The notes under the pieces are model-generated. The model was not told the origin of the DNA. It did no database searches and saw only the letters and a program-made list of their open reading frames with translations. Shown here piece after piece: positions 7,277 through 34,971 of a stretch of DNA of 38,430 nt (its first letter is position 1; every line of letters begins with the position of its first letter). This DNA comes from Candidatus Treponema caballi. GTDB taxonomy: Bacteria; Spirochaetota; Spirochaetia; Treponematales; Treponemataceae. Location of the stretch: NCBI GenBank assembly GCA_018066285.1, contig JAGHRS010000004.1, positions 1 to 38,430 on the forward strand, given 5' to 3'. The translations under genes were made by a program, and so were the position numbers.

Positions 7277-7999
7277 ATGGCTACTCCACATAATGCTGCA
7301 AATGCAGGCGATATCGCATCAGATGTAATTCTGCCAGGCGACCCGCTCAGGGCTCAGTACATGGCAGAGAAGTTCCTTTCCGATGTAAAGCAGGTTACTG
7401 GTGTCAGGAACATGTTCGGATTTACAGGAACCTGGAAAGGGAAACCTGTAACAATTATGGGTTCTGGAATGGGAGGTCCTTCAGCAGGCATCTACTCATA
7501 CGAACTGTTCAAGTTTTACGGTGTCAACCGTATCATCAGGACGGGAACATCAGGTTCCTTCCAGAAAGAGCTCATTCCCGGTGACCTTGTCTTTGCACAG
7601 ACTTCTTCCACTGATTCAGCATGGGCGCATCAGTACAAACTGCCCGGTACCTTTTCTCCGGCAGCAGACTTCGGCATGCTTGAAACAGCCGCCGCTTCTG
7701 CACGCGCACACAACTTCCGTTTCACTGCGGGCGGTATCTTTTCTTCAGACACTTTCTCTGATTACAGCGCGTTGAATGAAACGACGGGAGAAGCAAGCTG
7801 GTTACCCTGGGCCCGCATGGGATGTCTTTCATGCGACATGGAAACCTACGCCCTGTACTGCACGGCTGCCTGGCTTGGAAAGAAAGCGCTTTCCATCCTG
7901 ACGCTGACAGATTCCTGTGTAACGGGCGAGTCACTGCCTGCTGAAAACCGGATGGCAGCGCTGGAACCGATGTTCACGGTCGCGTTCGATATACTGTAA
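7277..7999 (+). CDS. deoD: DeoD-type purine nucleoside phosphorylase
   Basis: A 240-residue protein matching the trimeric/hexameric DeoD type: TPHNAANAGDIASDVILPGDPLRA at the N terminus (phosphate and ribose binding), GSGMGGPSAGIY, and the C-terminal catalytic Asp in LTDSCVTG with Arg in ENRM. It cleaves purine (deoxy)nucleosides with phosphate to base and ribose-1-phosphate in the cytoplasm, for salvage. The usual VEMEA ribose-binding segment appears as CDMETYA, with the ME pair kept. It is monocistronic, between a divergent promoter and a bidirectional terminator. Confidence 0.92.
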   Translation: MATPHNAANAGDIASDVILPGDPLRAQYMAEKFLSDVKQVTGVRNMFGFTGTWKGKPVTIMGSGMGGPSAGIYSYELFKFYGVNRIIRTGTSGSFQKELIPGDLVFAQTSSTDSAWAHQYKLPGTFSPAADFGMLETAAASARAHNFRFTAGGIFSSDTFSDYSALNETTGEASWLPWARMGCLSCDMETYALYCTAAWLGKKALSILTLTDSCVTGESLPAENRMAALEPMFTVAFDIL

Positions 8000-15347: not shown

Positions 15348-15821
15348 TTATATAAAGCTGAAAATTCCGAAACTTATGCACATCATGATGATGCCTGCTA
15401 TAAGGACACCGAGCACAACTGCTGCAACAGTGGATTTGAAATCTATATCGAGGATGCTGGCCGCAAGCGTACCTGTCCAGGCGCCAGTGCCGGGAAGCGG
15501 GATACCGACAAAAAGCATGAGTGCTATGAATAAGCCGCCTTTTCCTGCTTTTTCTGTAAGCTTTGCCCCGCCCTTGTGGCCTTTTTCAAGAAAGAACCGG
15601 CAGATGCCACCGATGAACTTTTTGTCCTGTCCCCACTCAAGAAAGCGGCGGGCAAACAGAAAGATGACCGGCACGGGAAGCATGTTGCCTATGATGCACA
15701 CAATGTAAGAAGTCAGCAGGGGAAGTGGCGGGTTGAATGCCTGAGAAACAGGAATGGCGACTCTGAGTTCCACAATTGGAACCATTGAGATAAAGAAAAT
15801 CCACAGGTATTTTGTCAGCAT
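15348..15821 (-). CDS. COG2426-family small multidrug export-like membrane protein
   Basis: A 157-residue integral membrane protein with the family signature FVGIPLPGTGAWTGTLAA, plus RVAIP near the N terminus, as in the Sm_multidrug_ex family. Four hydrophobic segments are visible. Experimental support for drug export in this family is weak. It lies 26 bp downstream of the M28 peptidase but has its own strong promoter within that gap and the peptidase's 3' end, with no ribosome binding site before the ATG. Confidence 0.8.
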   Translation of the reverse strand: MLTKYLWIFFISMVPIVELRVAIPVSQAFNPPLPLLTSYIVCIIGNMLPVPVIFLFARRFLEWGQDKKFIGGICRFFLEKGHKGGAKLTEKAGKGGLFIALMLFVGIPLPGTGAWTGTLAASILDIDFKSTVAAVVLGVLIAGIIMMCISFGIFSFI

Positions 15822-24414: not shown

Positions 24415-24891
24415 TTAATACCCGAGCTTTTTGAGCATTCCTGCAAGTCCCCTTGATATGTCGTCGTACGTTTCATCGAAGTTGTCTGTGTACCAGGGAT
24501 CGGCGACGTCGGGGACGTACTCTGGCGGAAAGCCCGGTCCGTCATATACGTATTCAAGCATTTTGTGGATTTTATGTTCAGGGTCGCCGCCTGCTATCCG
24601 CGTCATGTTGCGGACGTTGGCGCTGTCCATGCCAATAAGCAGATCGTACTCTTCATAGTCTTCACGGGTCATCTGCCTTGCATGGTGGCCGTCACAGCGG
24701 ATGTTGTAGCGGGCGAGTTTGTTGCGGGTTCCGTAATGAACGCCGTTGCCTATTTCTTCTGTACTGGTAGCTGCCGAGGCAATAAAAAACCGGTCCTGAA
24801 TGCCTTTCTTCTGAACGATATCCTTCAGAAGGAACTCTGCCATGGGGGACCGGCATATATTGCCGTGACAGACAAATAAAATCTTCGTCAT
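24415..24891 (-). CDS. Low-molecular-weight protein tyrosine phosphatase
   Basis: A 158-residue protein of normal family length. The active-site loop CHGNICRS (Cys8...Arg14) and the general acid Asp131 in DPWY are both present. These cytoplasmic enzymes remove phosphate from tyrosine residues, often in control of polysaccharide synthesis, but no tyrosine kinase or polysaccharide gene is nearby. A TGA-TATTAT extended -10 ends 6 nt before the ATG, with no ribosome binding site. Confidence 0.92.
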   Translation of the reverse strand: MTKILFVCHGNICRSPMAEFLLKDIVQKKGIQDRFFIASAATSTEEIGNGVHYGTRNKLARYNIRCDGHHARQMTREDYEEYDLLIGMDSANVRNMTRIAGGDPEHKIHKMLEYVYDGPGFPPEYVPDVADPWYTDNFDETYDDISRGLAGMLKKLGY

Positions 24892-31135: not shown

Positions 31136-32071
31136 TTATTTGCTTTCAGCCCTGCTTTCAGTCTTGCGCATGAGGGCACGTCTTGTTCTGACAGCAGCCA
31201 GATACTTTTCAAGCGACCCGGCATCATCATCCGCTATTGCAGCGCGGAACTTCTGCATTGAGTCAAGAAAAGTGTCCACATGCGGCAGCAAAGCATCCTT
31301 GTTTGAAAGGAAGAGCTCTGTCCAGAGCGGCGCGTTTATCATGGCAATGCGGGTAAGGTCTTCAAAGCTGCCGCCGCCGAACTCGGTGACGCGCTCGTCT
31401 TCCGCGCTGTCAACAAGAGCAGACGCTATGACATGACACAGCTGCGACGTGAATGCAATCTTGCTGTCATGCGTCTTTGCCGTTGTCTCGATAATCTGAC
31501 CGAAACCAAGCGCACGGATAATTGTCTTGAAGCGCTCCAGACGTTCAACATCCGAAAGCTGACCAGCTTCATGAGACGCGCTGGATGCGACAGATCTTGG
31601 AATGACGATGTAGTTACGTCCTTCAAAGTGAACAGTGTCTGAATGGCCAAACCCCTCGCGGTCGCTGCCTGCCATGGGGTGCCCTGCTATATACTGCGGA
31701 CACGCAGCCTCGCATTCCGCTACCTCACTGCCCTTCACGCCTGCAATATCCGTGACAATTGCGTCAGGAGCAAAGTCAGCGGCGTGCTCTTTTATGAAAC
31801 TGAATGCGGCGTCAGGATAGACACACACAAAGACCATGCTGCATTTTTTGAGCATTGCAGCGGCATTCTGCATGGAAAAAGCGCCGTCTATGACGCCTTC
31901 TGCAAGGGCCGCTTCCAGCACATCCGCTCGCGTGTCACAGGCGAAGATTTCGCTTTCAGAAGCCTCAGACCAGCCCGCTTCTGCAAGTCTACCGGATGAA
32001 GAGGCTGCCCTGCGGATGGCACGCGCAAAGCCGCCGCCCATAAGGCCAAGGCCGACAATTCCAAACGTCAT
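31136..32071 (-). CDS. tyrA: Prephenate dehydrogenase
   Basis: A 311-residue monofunctional enzyme. The NAD-binding motif GLGLMGG is at the N terminus, with the substrate-binding signature GHPMAGSDREG and the DIAGVKG segment. It oxidises prephenate to 4-hydroxyphenylpyruvate, the tyrosine branch. There is no chorismate mutase or ACT domain, so feedback control must act elsewhere. It follows aroF with a 3-bp gap, forming a two-gene operon under the leader-peptide attenuator. Confidence 0.92.
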   Translation of the reverse strand: MTFGIVGLGLMGGGFARAIRRAASSSGRLAEAGWSEASESEIFACDTRADVLEAALAEGVIDGAFSMQNAAAMLKKCSMVFVCVYPDAAFSFIKEHAADFAPDAIVTDIAGVKGSEVAECEAACPQYIAGHPMAGSDREGFGHSDTVHFEGRNYIVIPRSVASSASHEAGQLSDVERLERFKTIIRALGFGQIIETTAKTHDSKIAFTSQLCHVIASALVDSAEDERVTEFGGGSFEDLTRIAMINAPLWTELFLSNKDALLPHVDTFLDSMQKFRAAIADDDAGSLEKYLAAVRTRRALMRKTESRAESK

Positions 32072-32074
32072 TTT

Positions 32075-33097
32075 CTACAGGTCCTTGTCTTCAATGGCAG
32101 CGTACTTACGGAGCTTCTTCATGAGAGACTCAAACTGGGCAGGCGTAATTGACTGCTCACCGTCACAAAGAGCCATTTCAGGATTGTTATGAACCTCAAC
32201 GATAATGCCGTCAGCGCCTGCTGCAAGAGCTGCTTTTGCCATTGGCTCAACCATCCATGCACAGCCGGTCGCGTGGCTTGGGTCAACGATGACAGGCAGG
32301 TGCGTCTCGCGTTTCAGGAACGGAACGACGCTCAGATCAAGAACATTGCGCGTAAAACTGTCAAAGCTTCTTATACCGCGTTCACACAGAATGACGTTCT
32401 CGTTTCCGCCTGCCATGATGTATTCGGCTGACATAAGCAGTTCCTTTGCCGTATTTGCAAGGCCGCGCTTCAGAAGAATAGGCTTTCCGCAGTGACCGAG
32501 CTCTTTCAAAAGGTCAAAGTTCTGCATGTTGCGCGCGCCAATCTGGATGATATCTACATTGTCGAACAGTTCAAGCTGCTTGACTGACATAAGTTCAGTA
32601 ACGATTGGAAGGCCTGTTGCGCGCTTTGCTTCAAGCAGCAGGTCGATGCCCTCACAGCCCATGCCCTGGAAAGAGTACGGGGAAGTACGCGGCTTGAAGG
32701 CGCCTCCGCGGAGCATGCGCGCTCCTGAAAGCTTTACGGCGCGGGCAATGCCGGTAAGCTGATCGCGGCTTTCAACAGAGCAAGGACCAGCAATAACGGT
32801 GAAGTTTGGCGCACCGATTACAACGTCCTTTTCCTCTGTAGGAATGCGCACCAGCGTATCATCCGGATGGAACTTGCGGTTCGCCATTTTATACGGTTCC
32901 TGAACACGCATAACCTTTTCTACAAGGTGGTTAGCCTTGAGTGATTCAGCATCAATGCCGCTTGTATCACCTACAAGACCGAGAATGGCAGTATTTTCGC
33001 CGAATGACTCATGAATGCCTACTCCCAGTGCTTTAAGATGGGTGGCAAGCTCATCAACCTCTTCCTTTTTAATTCCGTGTTTCAGAACAACAATCAT
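32075..33097 (-). CDS. aroF: 3-deoxy-7-phosphoheptulonate synthase, beta type
   Basis: A 340-residue DAHP synthase of the Thermotoga/Bacillus type. A ferredoxin-like regulatory domain (1-70, MIVVLKHGIKKEEVDELATHL) precedes the barrel with AGPCSVES, RGGAFKPRTSPYSFQG, VIVDPSHATG and IVEVHNNPE. It joins PEP and erythrose-4-phosphate as the first step to aromatic amino acids. In related enzymes the N-terminal domain binds Tyr or Phe for feedback inhibition. The ATG has GGAGG about 6 nt upstream. Transcription is probably controlled by the upstream attenuator. Confidence 0.94.
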   Translation of the reverse strand: MIVVLKHGIKKEEVDELATHLKALGVGIHESFGENTAILGLVGDTSGIDAESLKANHLVEKVMRVQEPYKMANRKFHPDDTLVRIPTEEKDVVIGAPNFTVIAGPCSVESRDQLTGIARAVKLSGARMLRGGAFKPRTSPYSFQGMGCEGIDLLLEAKRATGLPIVTELMSVKQLELFDNVDIIQIGARNMQNFDLLKELGHCGKPILLKRGLANTAKELLMSAEYIMAGGNENVILCERGIRSFDSFTRNVLDLSVVPFLKRETHLPVIVDPSHATGCAWMVEPMAKAALAAGADGIIVEVHNNPEMALCDGEQSITPAQFESLMKKLRKYAAIEDKDL

Positions 33098-33141: not shown

Positions 33142-33175
33142 AAAAAAAAGGAGATTCCGTTGTGCGGAATCTCCT
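33142..33175 (-). terminator. Attenuator terminator upstream of aroF
   Basis: On the minus strand AGGAGATTCCG and its exact complement form an 11-bp stem around loop CACAA, followed by eight T (33149-33142). It sits 45 bp before the aroF ATG, after the leader ORF, so it can only act as a premature terminator. Confidence 0.88.
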
Positions 33176-33240
33176 GTAATTACCTCTGGTAATACATGCA
33201 AGCCTTAAGCATTACTGCTTGTTGGCATTGCTGTCCGCAC
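33162..33240 (-). promoter_or_regulatory. Antiterminator pairing of the aroF leader
   Basis: Segment 2 (GTGCGGA, 33240-33234), at the end of the leader ORF, is fully complementary to TCCGCAC (33168-33162) in the terminator's 5' arm and loop. Pairing would break the terminator. Segment 2 can also pair with segment 1 (GTCCG at 33292-33288 with CGGAC at 33237-33233). A separate small hairpin ATTACC-AGA-GGTAAT (33193-33179) lies between. Confidence 0.65.
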
Positions 33241-33301
33241 TACAGTGAGAAAACTCGTAATAATAATAAAAGAATGTCTCTGCATAACGGACTGTATTCA
33301 T
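33212..33301 (-). CDS. Phe/Tyr-rich leader peptide of the aroF-tyrA attenuator
   Basis: A 29-codon ORF from the ATG at 33301 to TAA at 33214-33212. It contains FFYYYYEF at residues 10-17 plus Tyr6: eight aromatic codons of 29, six in a row. The downstream genes make Phe/Tyr precursors. It starts 7 nt after a consensus -10 and has no properly spaced ribosome binding site, so its mRNA would be leaderless. Like pheL or trpL, its role is to let the ribosome sense charged tRNA-Phe and tRNA-Tyr; the peptide itself probably has no function. Confidence 0.8.
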   Translation of the reverse strand: MNTVRYAETFFYYYYEFSHCSADSNANKQ

Positions 33302-33308
33302 ATCTGGA

Positions 33309-33337
33309 ACTATATCCTTATCAATAAACTTGGTCAA
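33309..33337 (-). promoter_or_regulatory. Promoter of the aroF-tyrA leader
   Basis: On the minus strand TTGACC (33337-33332), 17-bp spacer, TATAGT (33314-33309), 7 nt, then the leader ATG. It lies between gltX and the leader. A hairpin CCCGGAT/ATCCGGG (33340-33378) between it and the gltX stop may end gltX transcription, though without a long U tract. Confidence 0.75.
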
Positions 33338-33384: not shown

Positions 33385-34971
33385 TCAGAACTGCTTCAGG
33401 GTGTTCTCTGTGCGTTCAAGGGCGCGGTCAATGCCGAGTGCAAGGATTGAGCCCATAAGCGGCGGAGAAACACGGCTGCCGGTAACTGCCATGCGGATTG
33501 GCATCATGAAGTCGCCGAGCTTAATGCCGAGTTCTTCAGACATCTTGCGGGCAAGCTCTTCCTGCGCCTCGTGCTCTGGAATGTCTGGCAGAGCCTTGAT
33601 GAACTCCTTTGACTTTTCAAGGACTTCCTTTGTCTTGGCTGCGTCGAGGCGCTTCGGCACGATTTCTTCAACAGGAGGAACGGCGACGTTCTTGAACAGG
33701 AAGCCGACCATTTCTGCGGCGTCTGTCAGGAAGTGCAGGCGCTCCTTGATGAGCGGCATGAGCATCATGAGCTTTTCGCGGATTTCAGCGTCAGTAAGCG
33801 GCGCCGCACCTGCAGCAACTGCCTCTGGAGCGATGCAGAGCTTTCCGTCAGCGTCATAGGCGATTCCAGACCATGCTGGTCCTACGTGCGGTGCCGGGAA
33901 CTCTTCGCTTGCATTAACCGGAATGGCCGCGTCGCCTGTACCGGTGATGAACGGCAGTGTCCAGTCAAACAGTTCCTGGTCTGTCATCAGGCGGATGTAC
34001 TGGCCGTTGTACCACTCAAGCTTCTTGTAGTCGAATACTGCCGGTGCCTTATTCAGGTGCTCCAGCTTGAAAAGCTTCTCAAAGTCTGCAAGGTCGTACA
34101 TGTCGCGGCCGTCTTCGTAAGAGCAGCCAAGCATGGCGACGTAGTTGATGAGTGCCTTAGGAACATATCCGCGAGCACGGAACTCGTTGACAGATGTTGC
34201 ACCGTGGCGCTTTGAAAGCTTCTGGCCATCCTTTCCCATAACCATTGGCAGGTGGCAGAACTCAGGATAATCCCATCCGAAAGCCTTGTACATGATGACG
34301 TGCATTGGAGTAGAAGGAATCCATTCCTGTGCACGCATGACGTGGCTGATCTTCATGAAGTGGTCATCAACAATATTTGCAAGGTGATATGTCGGAAAAC
34401 CGTCGCTCTTAAGGAGAACAGGGTCCGGACTTACATCCTCGTTTTTCCATTCAATGTTTCCAAGAAGTGCATCGTGGAACTTTGTCTCGCCTTCCATCGG
34501 AACCTTGAGGCGGATGACGTATGGCTTGCCTGCATCGAGGTTTGCCTTTACTTCTTCCGGAGTAAGGTGGCGGCAGTTGCGGTCGTAACCAGGAGCCATC
34601 TTGTTCTTTGTCTGCAGTGCGCGGATGCGTTCAAGACGCTCTTCATCGCAGAAGCAGTAGTAAGCCTGTCCCTTGTCGACAAGTTCCTGAGCGTACTTCT
34701 TGTACAGCTCAAAACGCTCTGACTGAACGTACGGGCCGTATTCACCGCCCTTAGGACCGCCTTCATCCCACTCAATGCCAAGCCAGGCAAGAGTGTCGTA
34801 AAGGTTCTGGACATATTCTTCACCGTAGCGTGTACGGTCTGTATCTTCAAGGCGAAGGATGAACTTACCGCCCTGACTGCGGGCGTAAAGGTAATTGAAA
34901 AGAGCGGTACGAACACCGCCGATGTGCTGCATTCCTGTTGGAGAAGGAGCGTATCTTACACGAACTTCCAT
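33385..34971 (-). CDS. gltX: Glutamyl-tRNA synthetase
   Basis: A 528-residue class I synthetase. The HIGH motif is HIGG (16-19) and the KMSKS motif is KLSKR (251-255), with APSPTGMQHIGG and RLEDTD as family marks. It charges tRNA-Glu (and perhaps tRNA-Gln). An insert at about 345-400, rich in Ala and Pro, makes it about 45 residues longer than typical. TAGGAG lies 6 nt before the ATG, with a promoter about 28 nt upstream, so this one has a conventional leader. Confidence 0.95.
   Translation of the reverse strand: MEVRVRYAPSPTGMQHIGGVRTALFNYLYARSQGGKFILRLEDTDRTRYGEEYVQNLYDTLAWLGIEWDEGGPKGGEYGPYVQSERFELYKKYAQELVDKGQAYYCFCDEERLERIRALQTKNKMAPGYDRNCRHLTPEEVKANLDAGKPYVIRLKVPMEGETKFHDALLGNIEWKNEDVSPDPVLLKSDGFPTYHLANIVDDHFMKISHVMRAQEWIPSTPMHVIMYKAFGWDYPEFCHLPMVMGKDGQKLSKRHGATSVNEFRARGYVPKALINYVAMLGCSYEDGRDMYDLADFEKLFKLEHLNKAPAVFDYKKLEWYNGQYIRLMTDQELFDWTLPFITGTGDAAIPVNASEEFPAPHVGPAWSGIAYDADGKLCIAPEAVAAGAAPLTDAEIREKLMMLMPLIKERLHFLTDAAEMVGFLFKNVAVPPVEEIVPKRLDAAKTKEVLEKSKEFIKALPDIPEHEAQEELARKMSEELGIKLGDFMMPIRMAVTGSRVSPPLMGSILALGIDRALERTENTLKQF

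Follow-up and report, generated by a model that had tools for sequence, protein, structure and literature searches.

A predicted leaderless Phe/Tyr leader peptide in a probable ribosome-mediated attenuator upstream of aroF-tyrA in Treponema and its relatives

Introduction

Ribosome-mediated attenuation has long been established as a mode of transcriptional control. In the trpL, pheL and hisL leaders of E. coli, a peptide rich in codons for the pathway product is combined with protector, antiterminator and terminator pairing, and a U-run terminator precedes the biosynthetic gene. A 2010 survey of premature terminators described leader-peptide systems as previously found only in Proteobacteria and Actinobacteria and added a His case from the Firmicutes (PMC2965389). 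Upstream of aroF, an aromatic leader peptide (F-Y-F) has been proposed in Corynebacterium glutamicum (PMC4046766), and uORFC-13-1, a small ORF with a terminator, has been proposed to mediate Phe-dependent attenuation in Acholeplasma (PMC8632094). In Sinorhizobium meliloti trpL (PMC7298713) and in the leuL, trpL and ilvL leaders of Streptomyces (PMC8079986), the start codon of the leader peptide lies at the 5′ end of the RNA. Here we analyze the region upstream of aroF-tyrA in Candidatus Treponema caballi, within a stretch of 38,430 nt (contig JAGHRS010000004.1, positions 1 to 38,430; hereafter the window), together with its homologues in other spirochaetes and in Clostridia.

Results

Anatomy of the leader region

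All features described here lie on the minus strand of the window. The leader region separates gltX, which ends at 33385, from the aroF start at 33097. The aroF gene (32075-33097) encodes a 340-aa DAHP synthase (NF006421/TIGR01361) with its own Shine-Dalgarno (SD) sequence, ggagg, and is followed 3 nt later by a gene for a tyrA-like prephenate dehydrogenase of 311 aa (31136-32071); aroF then tyrA is the order in most loci checked. The best-scoring promoter of the region has a -35 box, TTGACC (33332-33337), and, after a 17-nt spacer, a -10 box, TATAGT (33309-33314), which ends 7 nt 5′ of the leader ATG. The leader peptide ORF, MNTVRYAETFFYYYYEFSHCSADSNANKQ, has 29 codons (33212-33301, with ATG at 33301 and TAA at 33212), and its codons 10-17, TTC TTT TAT TAT TAT TAC GAG TTT, spell FFYYYYEF (33251-33274; leader nt 28-51).

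Three segments can compete for pairing around this ORF. Segment 1, the 5′ arm of the protector in the minimum free energy (MFE) fold, is GTCCGT..TGCAGAGA (33277-33292), with its core GTCCG at 33292-33288 inside the longer arm. Segment 2, GTGCGGA (33234-33240; leader nt 62-68), is the 5′ arm of the antiterminator, and the 3′ arm of the protector reaches beyond it (33250-33233). Its partner, segment 3, TCCGCAC (33162-33168), comprises terminator 5′ arm and loop. The intrinsic terminator (33142-33175) has 10 bp plus an A-T closing pair, a 5-nt loop and a T8 tract; its hairpin, GGAGATTCCG-CACAA-CGGAATCTCC, occupies 33174-33150, followed by the T8 at 33149-33142. Promoter, ORF, terminator and all three segments agree base for base with the original prediction, which overlooked the predicted leaderless start described next.

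The leader start codon is adjacent to the promoter

Among the 108 spirochaete loci with a qualifying leader (see below), the -10 box lies 6-9 nt from the leader ATG in 95, compared with a null in which 5% fall in the 4-8 nt band. The spacing in clostridial aroF leaders is mostly 23-59 nt, giving 5′ leaders of roughly 30 nt with an SD. The leader ATG has an SD before it at 6/108 spirochaete loci versus 31/35 clostridial ones, and at T. caballi it has none; in front of aroF itself, an SD is found in 107/108 and 33/35 loci, respectively. Because a -10 box only 6-9 nt away should place the start of transcription at or beside the AUG, and because the SD is absent, we predict that the leader mRNA is leaderless, with the AUG at +1 or within about 3 nt of it, while its target gene aroF would use an ordinary SD.

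The same attenuator could instead operate with a leader translated from a short or SD-independent 5′ UTR rather than from a true leaderless RNA. The start sites are predicted ones, the 9-nt spacing seen in 22 loci would leave 1-3 nt before the AUG, and L006 and the L053 type, from the same family, are SD-led. We nevertheless regard this version as unlikely, since in 95/108 loci the -10 box, together with the missing SD, leaves space for no more than a few untranslated bases.

Leaderless mRNAs occur commonly in Leptospira (PMC5243855). In the T. caballi window, three further ORFs without a clear SD have an ATG 6 nt past a TATACT or TATTAT box (7277-7999 on the plus strand; 15348-15821 and 24415-24891 on the minus strand). 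These are possibly leaderless as well, and this mode may be common in the genome.

Leader ORF, terminator and segment 2:3 pairing are conserved

We gathered aroF homologues within the genus and the family, and from a named collection of genomes, removed duplicates, and scanned 138 spirochaete upstream regions by a single procedure; nearly all are from Treponemataceae, with a few unclassified spirochaete loci. A match was defined as a leader ORF with ≥5 aromatic codons in 9, followed by a terminator. The original prediction had named relatives that keep the hairpin without an aromatic ORF as the observation that would speak against it. The survey left the prediction standing: ORF and terminator occur together in 108/138 regions and in 0/138 reverse-complement controls. 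Where a terminator is detected, ≥5 aromatics per 9 codons are found in 90% of real loci versus 1.6% of terminator-keeping shuffles, in controls that, like those for complementarity below, ignore shared ancestry. The 30 loci without a qualifying match include some that are short of upstream sequence or below thresholds and some that apparently have no leader. Two loci of the same genus (L008 and L009) carry a second, longer ORF of about 655-660 aa that contains a DAHP synthase and has no aromatic leader.

The same layout of leader and terminator was found at 35/59 clostridial aroF homologues. Aromatic leader peptides, mostly with an SD, lie 5′ of aroF in many Clostridia (L050, L057, L068, L071, L076, L080, L087 and others), and the papers that we found do not describe them.

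Segment 2 and the terminator 5′ arm differ among species and yet co-vary. The longest perfect complement between segments 2 and 3 averages 6.8 nt, compared to 5.0 nt for swapped partners and 4.5 nt for shuffles, and the match is kept in segment 2 sequences as diverse as GTGCGGA, ACGCAGGGT, CATGGAAGT, TTGCAGAG, GAAGAGT and AGAAGGT. The distance from the last control codon to the start of segment 2 has a median of 13 nt (interquartile range 11-16 nt), which would place segment 2 just outside the front edge of a stalled ribosome. The distance from segment 2 to the stop codon ranges from overlap to >30 nt across relatives, so the wide stop spacing first described as a departure from trpL is not a fixed feature of these leaders.

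Since gltX ends upstream on the same strand and terminators can close preceding genes, the hairpin might be a constitutive intergenic terminator at the end of gltX, with an independent start for aroF and an incidental small ORF. We consider this very improbable, because a strong promoter separates gltX from the ORF, relatives with different upstream sequence keep the aromatic ORF and its spacing to segment 2, and segment 2 follows the changes in the terminator arm. In Firmicutes, T-boxes control aromatic genes, and by that precedent a T-box or metabolite riboswitch could govern the terminator with the ORF secondary, an explanation we find barely credible given that the Rfam leader RNA and T-box families yielded no covariance-model match to the leader that reached the gathering score and, at a relaxed threshold, nothing meaningful, that ORF and terminator occupy most of the leader, and that the aromatic codons are conserved in frame.

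A modelled ribosome stall switches the fold

The fold of the leader RNA reaches -55.7 kcal/mol versus -31.6 +/- 3.2 kcal/mol in shuffles (z -7.4), and its structure is not due to chance. At about -17 kcal/mol, the terminator is more stable than the 7-bp antiterminator, and folding of the full-length RNA always gives the terminator. The switch must therefore be kinetic, decided during transcription. We modelled nascent RNA at the 108 loci by restricting the fold to the RNA in front of the ribosome, through the end of the terminator loop. The mean expected number of 2:3 pairs was 9.9 with the ribosome on the control codons, 6.5 with no ribosome and 2.1 with the ribosome at the stop codon, and pairing was greater in the stalled state than at the stop in 107/108 loci. 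At the T. caballi locus, the simulation forms 2:3 for a ribosome halted at codon 17 or at any of codons 10-14, and no longer does so from codon 20 onward; for a stall at codon 15, the model let segments 1 and 2 pair across the ribosome.

These models and the conservation of ORF, terminator and 2:3 complementarity support the attenuator logic first proposed. Within its 1:2 / 2:3 / 3:4 scheme, competition of 2:3 with the terminator is supported by the co-variation; the 1:2 protector is clear in the MFE fold at T. caballi and only moderately exceeds shuffles family-wide (31/98 loci at 5% or better), suggesting that it is less constrained than 2:3 across the family.

The amino acid probably sensed

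The codon clusters of the spirochaete leaders are 55% Tyr, 22% Phe and 4% Trp. The signal is thus most likely uncharged tRNA-Tyr, with Phe second. The earlier proposal that both amino acids are sensed is plausible on this composition, with Tyr as the main component. Trp codons in the aroF leader tend to accompany possession of trpE (27/63 vs 6/37; Fisher p 0.008, uncorrected for ancestry), a suggestive association. The T. caballi genome gave no trpE match, and its aroF leader has no Trp codon; upstream of trpE in 19 relatives, we found no Trp leader.

Scanning the T. caballi genome for runs of six Phe/Tyr codons returned 13 matches, not above the 16 of a reversed-pattern control. Besides the aroF leader and two matches in C43 and C73, the sequence context was read at five matching places, in C12, C24, C57 (two places) and C63, and none showed a leader. 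The sole match to PF00800 (prephenate dehydratase) in this genome (G000:C47:4334-4639; L226, L236) has one in-frame TGA, for which a pseudogene, recoding or a sequencing error are possible explanations.

A similar leader precedes hisG

The T. caballi genome also encodes a His leader peptide, MSLVIMHAHHHHSHEVSQ, before hisG; promoter and ATG are arranged as at aroF, and a terminator is present (L227, G000:C46). His leaders with a promoter-adjacent ATG, mostly with a terminator before hisG, occur at eight further loci (L238, L240, L246, L250, L255, L261, L287 and L288). In the own genome and relatives together, 9/12 His leaders have a spacing of 7-9 nt, versus 4.8% of shuffles scored for 6-9 nt. 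By its layout, the hisG leader is a second putative leaderless attenuator similar to that of aroF, with a predicted start. The same criterion revealed no His leader in the 18 hisG upstream regions of the own-type group that came from outside the genus, nor in many of those of the other hisG group.

Clostridial-type aroF in Treponemataceae

A quick tree of AroF places most spirochaete sequences in one group (support 88). Four loci of Treponemataceae (L005, L006, L007 and L053) fall among clostridial sequences (support 95-99), and this nesting suggests that some Treponemataceae acquired a clostridial-type aroF horizontally. The clostridial type is also seen within the family at L129, L131, L132, L139 and L140; tree placement covers the first four loci only. 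The leaders of those four resemble one another. L006 and the L053 type retain the SD together with about 25-28 nt of 5′ UTR; in L005 and L007 the 5′ UTR is about 22 nt shorter than in L006, and the ATG lies 6 nt past the -10 box. The pattern suggests that an SD-led attenuator became leaderless once transferred, a direction of change that we infer.

Discussion

Taking the anatomy, its conservation and the folding models together, we conclude that a ribosome-mediated transcription attenuator very probably controls aroF-tyrA. The leader AUG would lie at the start of transcription or beside it, allowing a ribosome to load straight onto the 5′ end of the RNA by leaderless initiation. As long as Tyr-tRNA and Phe-tRNA are charged, the ribosome would pass through FFYYYYEF, segment 2 would then be covered, or re-paired with segment 1 after release, and the 3:4 terminator would form and end transcription at about 33142. 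With uncharged tRNA-Tyr (or tRNA-Phe), the ribosome would stall within codons 10-17, its leading edge just short of segment 2 and segment 1 disrupted; segments 2 and 3 would pair before segment 4 is made, pre-empting the terminator and allowing transcription of aroF-tyrA.

More broadly, we lean towards the view that the aroF and hisG attenuators of Treponemataceae are built on leaderless initiation, and that the acquired clostridial aroF attenuator became leaderless in spirochaetes by losing about 20 nt of its 5′ UTR. On that view, these bacteria would favour leaderless initiation for sensing rather than just tolerate it. The sister loci L005/L007 and L006, a 5′-UTR deletion apart, are a natural experiment on leaderless start and attenuator response.

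The leader is probably a leaderless variant of classical ribosome-mediated attenuation, a variant for which our search of the open-access literature, with subscription literature outside its scope, found no description in spirochaetes. The strong comparative support carries ribosome-mediated attenuation into a large spirochaete family, supplies >100 natural variants of one attenuator, and would tie attenuation to leaderless translation. The T. caballi leader shares with enteric trpL, pheL and hisL the product-codon-rich peptide, the predicted three-segment logic and the U-run terminator; it differs in its unrelated sequence (no Rfam match), in its Tyr-led cluster before a DAHP synthase gene, and, across the spirochaetes, in the predicted leaderless start and the variable distance from segment 2 to the stop. 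Clostridial leaders such as L050, L057 and L076 have an aromatic leader, a terminator and a homologous AroF in common with the spirochaete ones, but their 5′ UTR is mostly 23-59 nt long and carries an SD. Compared by description, Acholeplasma uORFC-13-1 resembles the present leader in its uORF and terminator before aroF, but published reports place it only in Acholeplasma and environmental sequences, not in spirochaetes, and it has a Phe (U-run) signal, versus the Tyr-dominated one here (PMC8632094). The C. glutamicum leader likewise places aromatic codons before a DAHP synthase gene, but it is actinobacterial and only three consecutive aromatics are reported (PMC4046766). The S. meliloti (PMC7298713) and Streptomyces (PMC8079986) leaders match the spirochaete prediction in that their RNA begins with the start codon, but they belong to other phyla and concern other amino acids.
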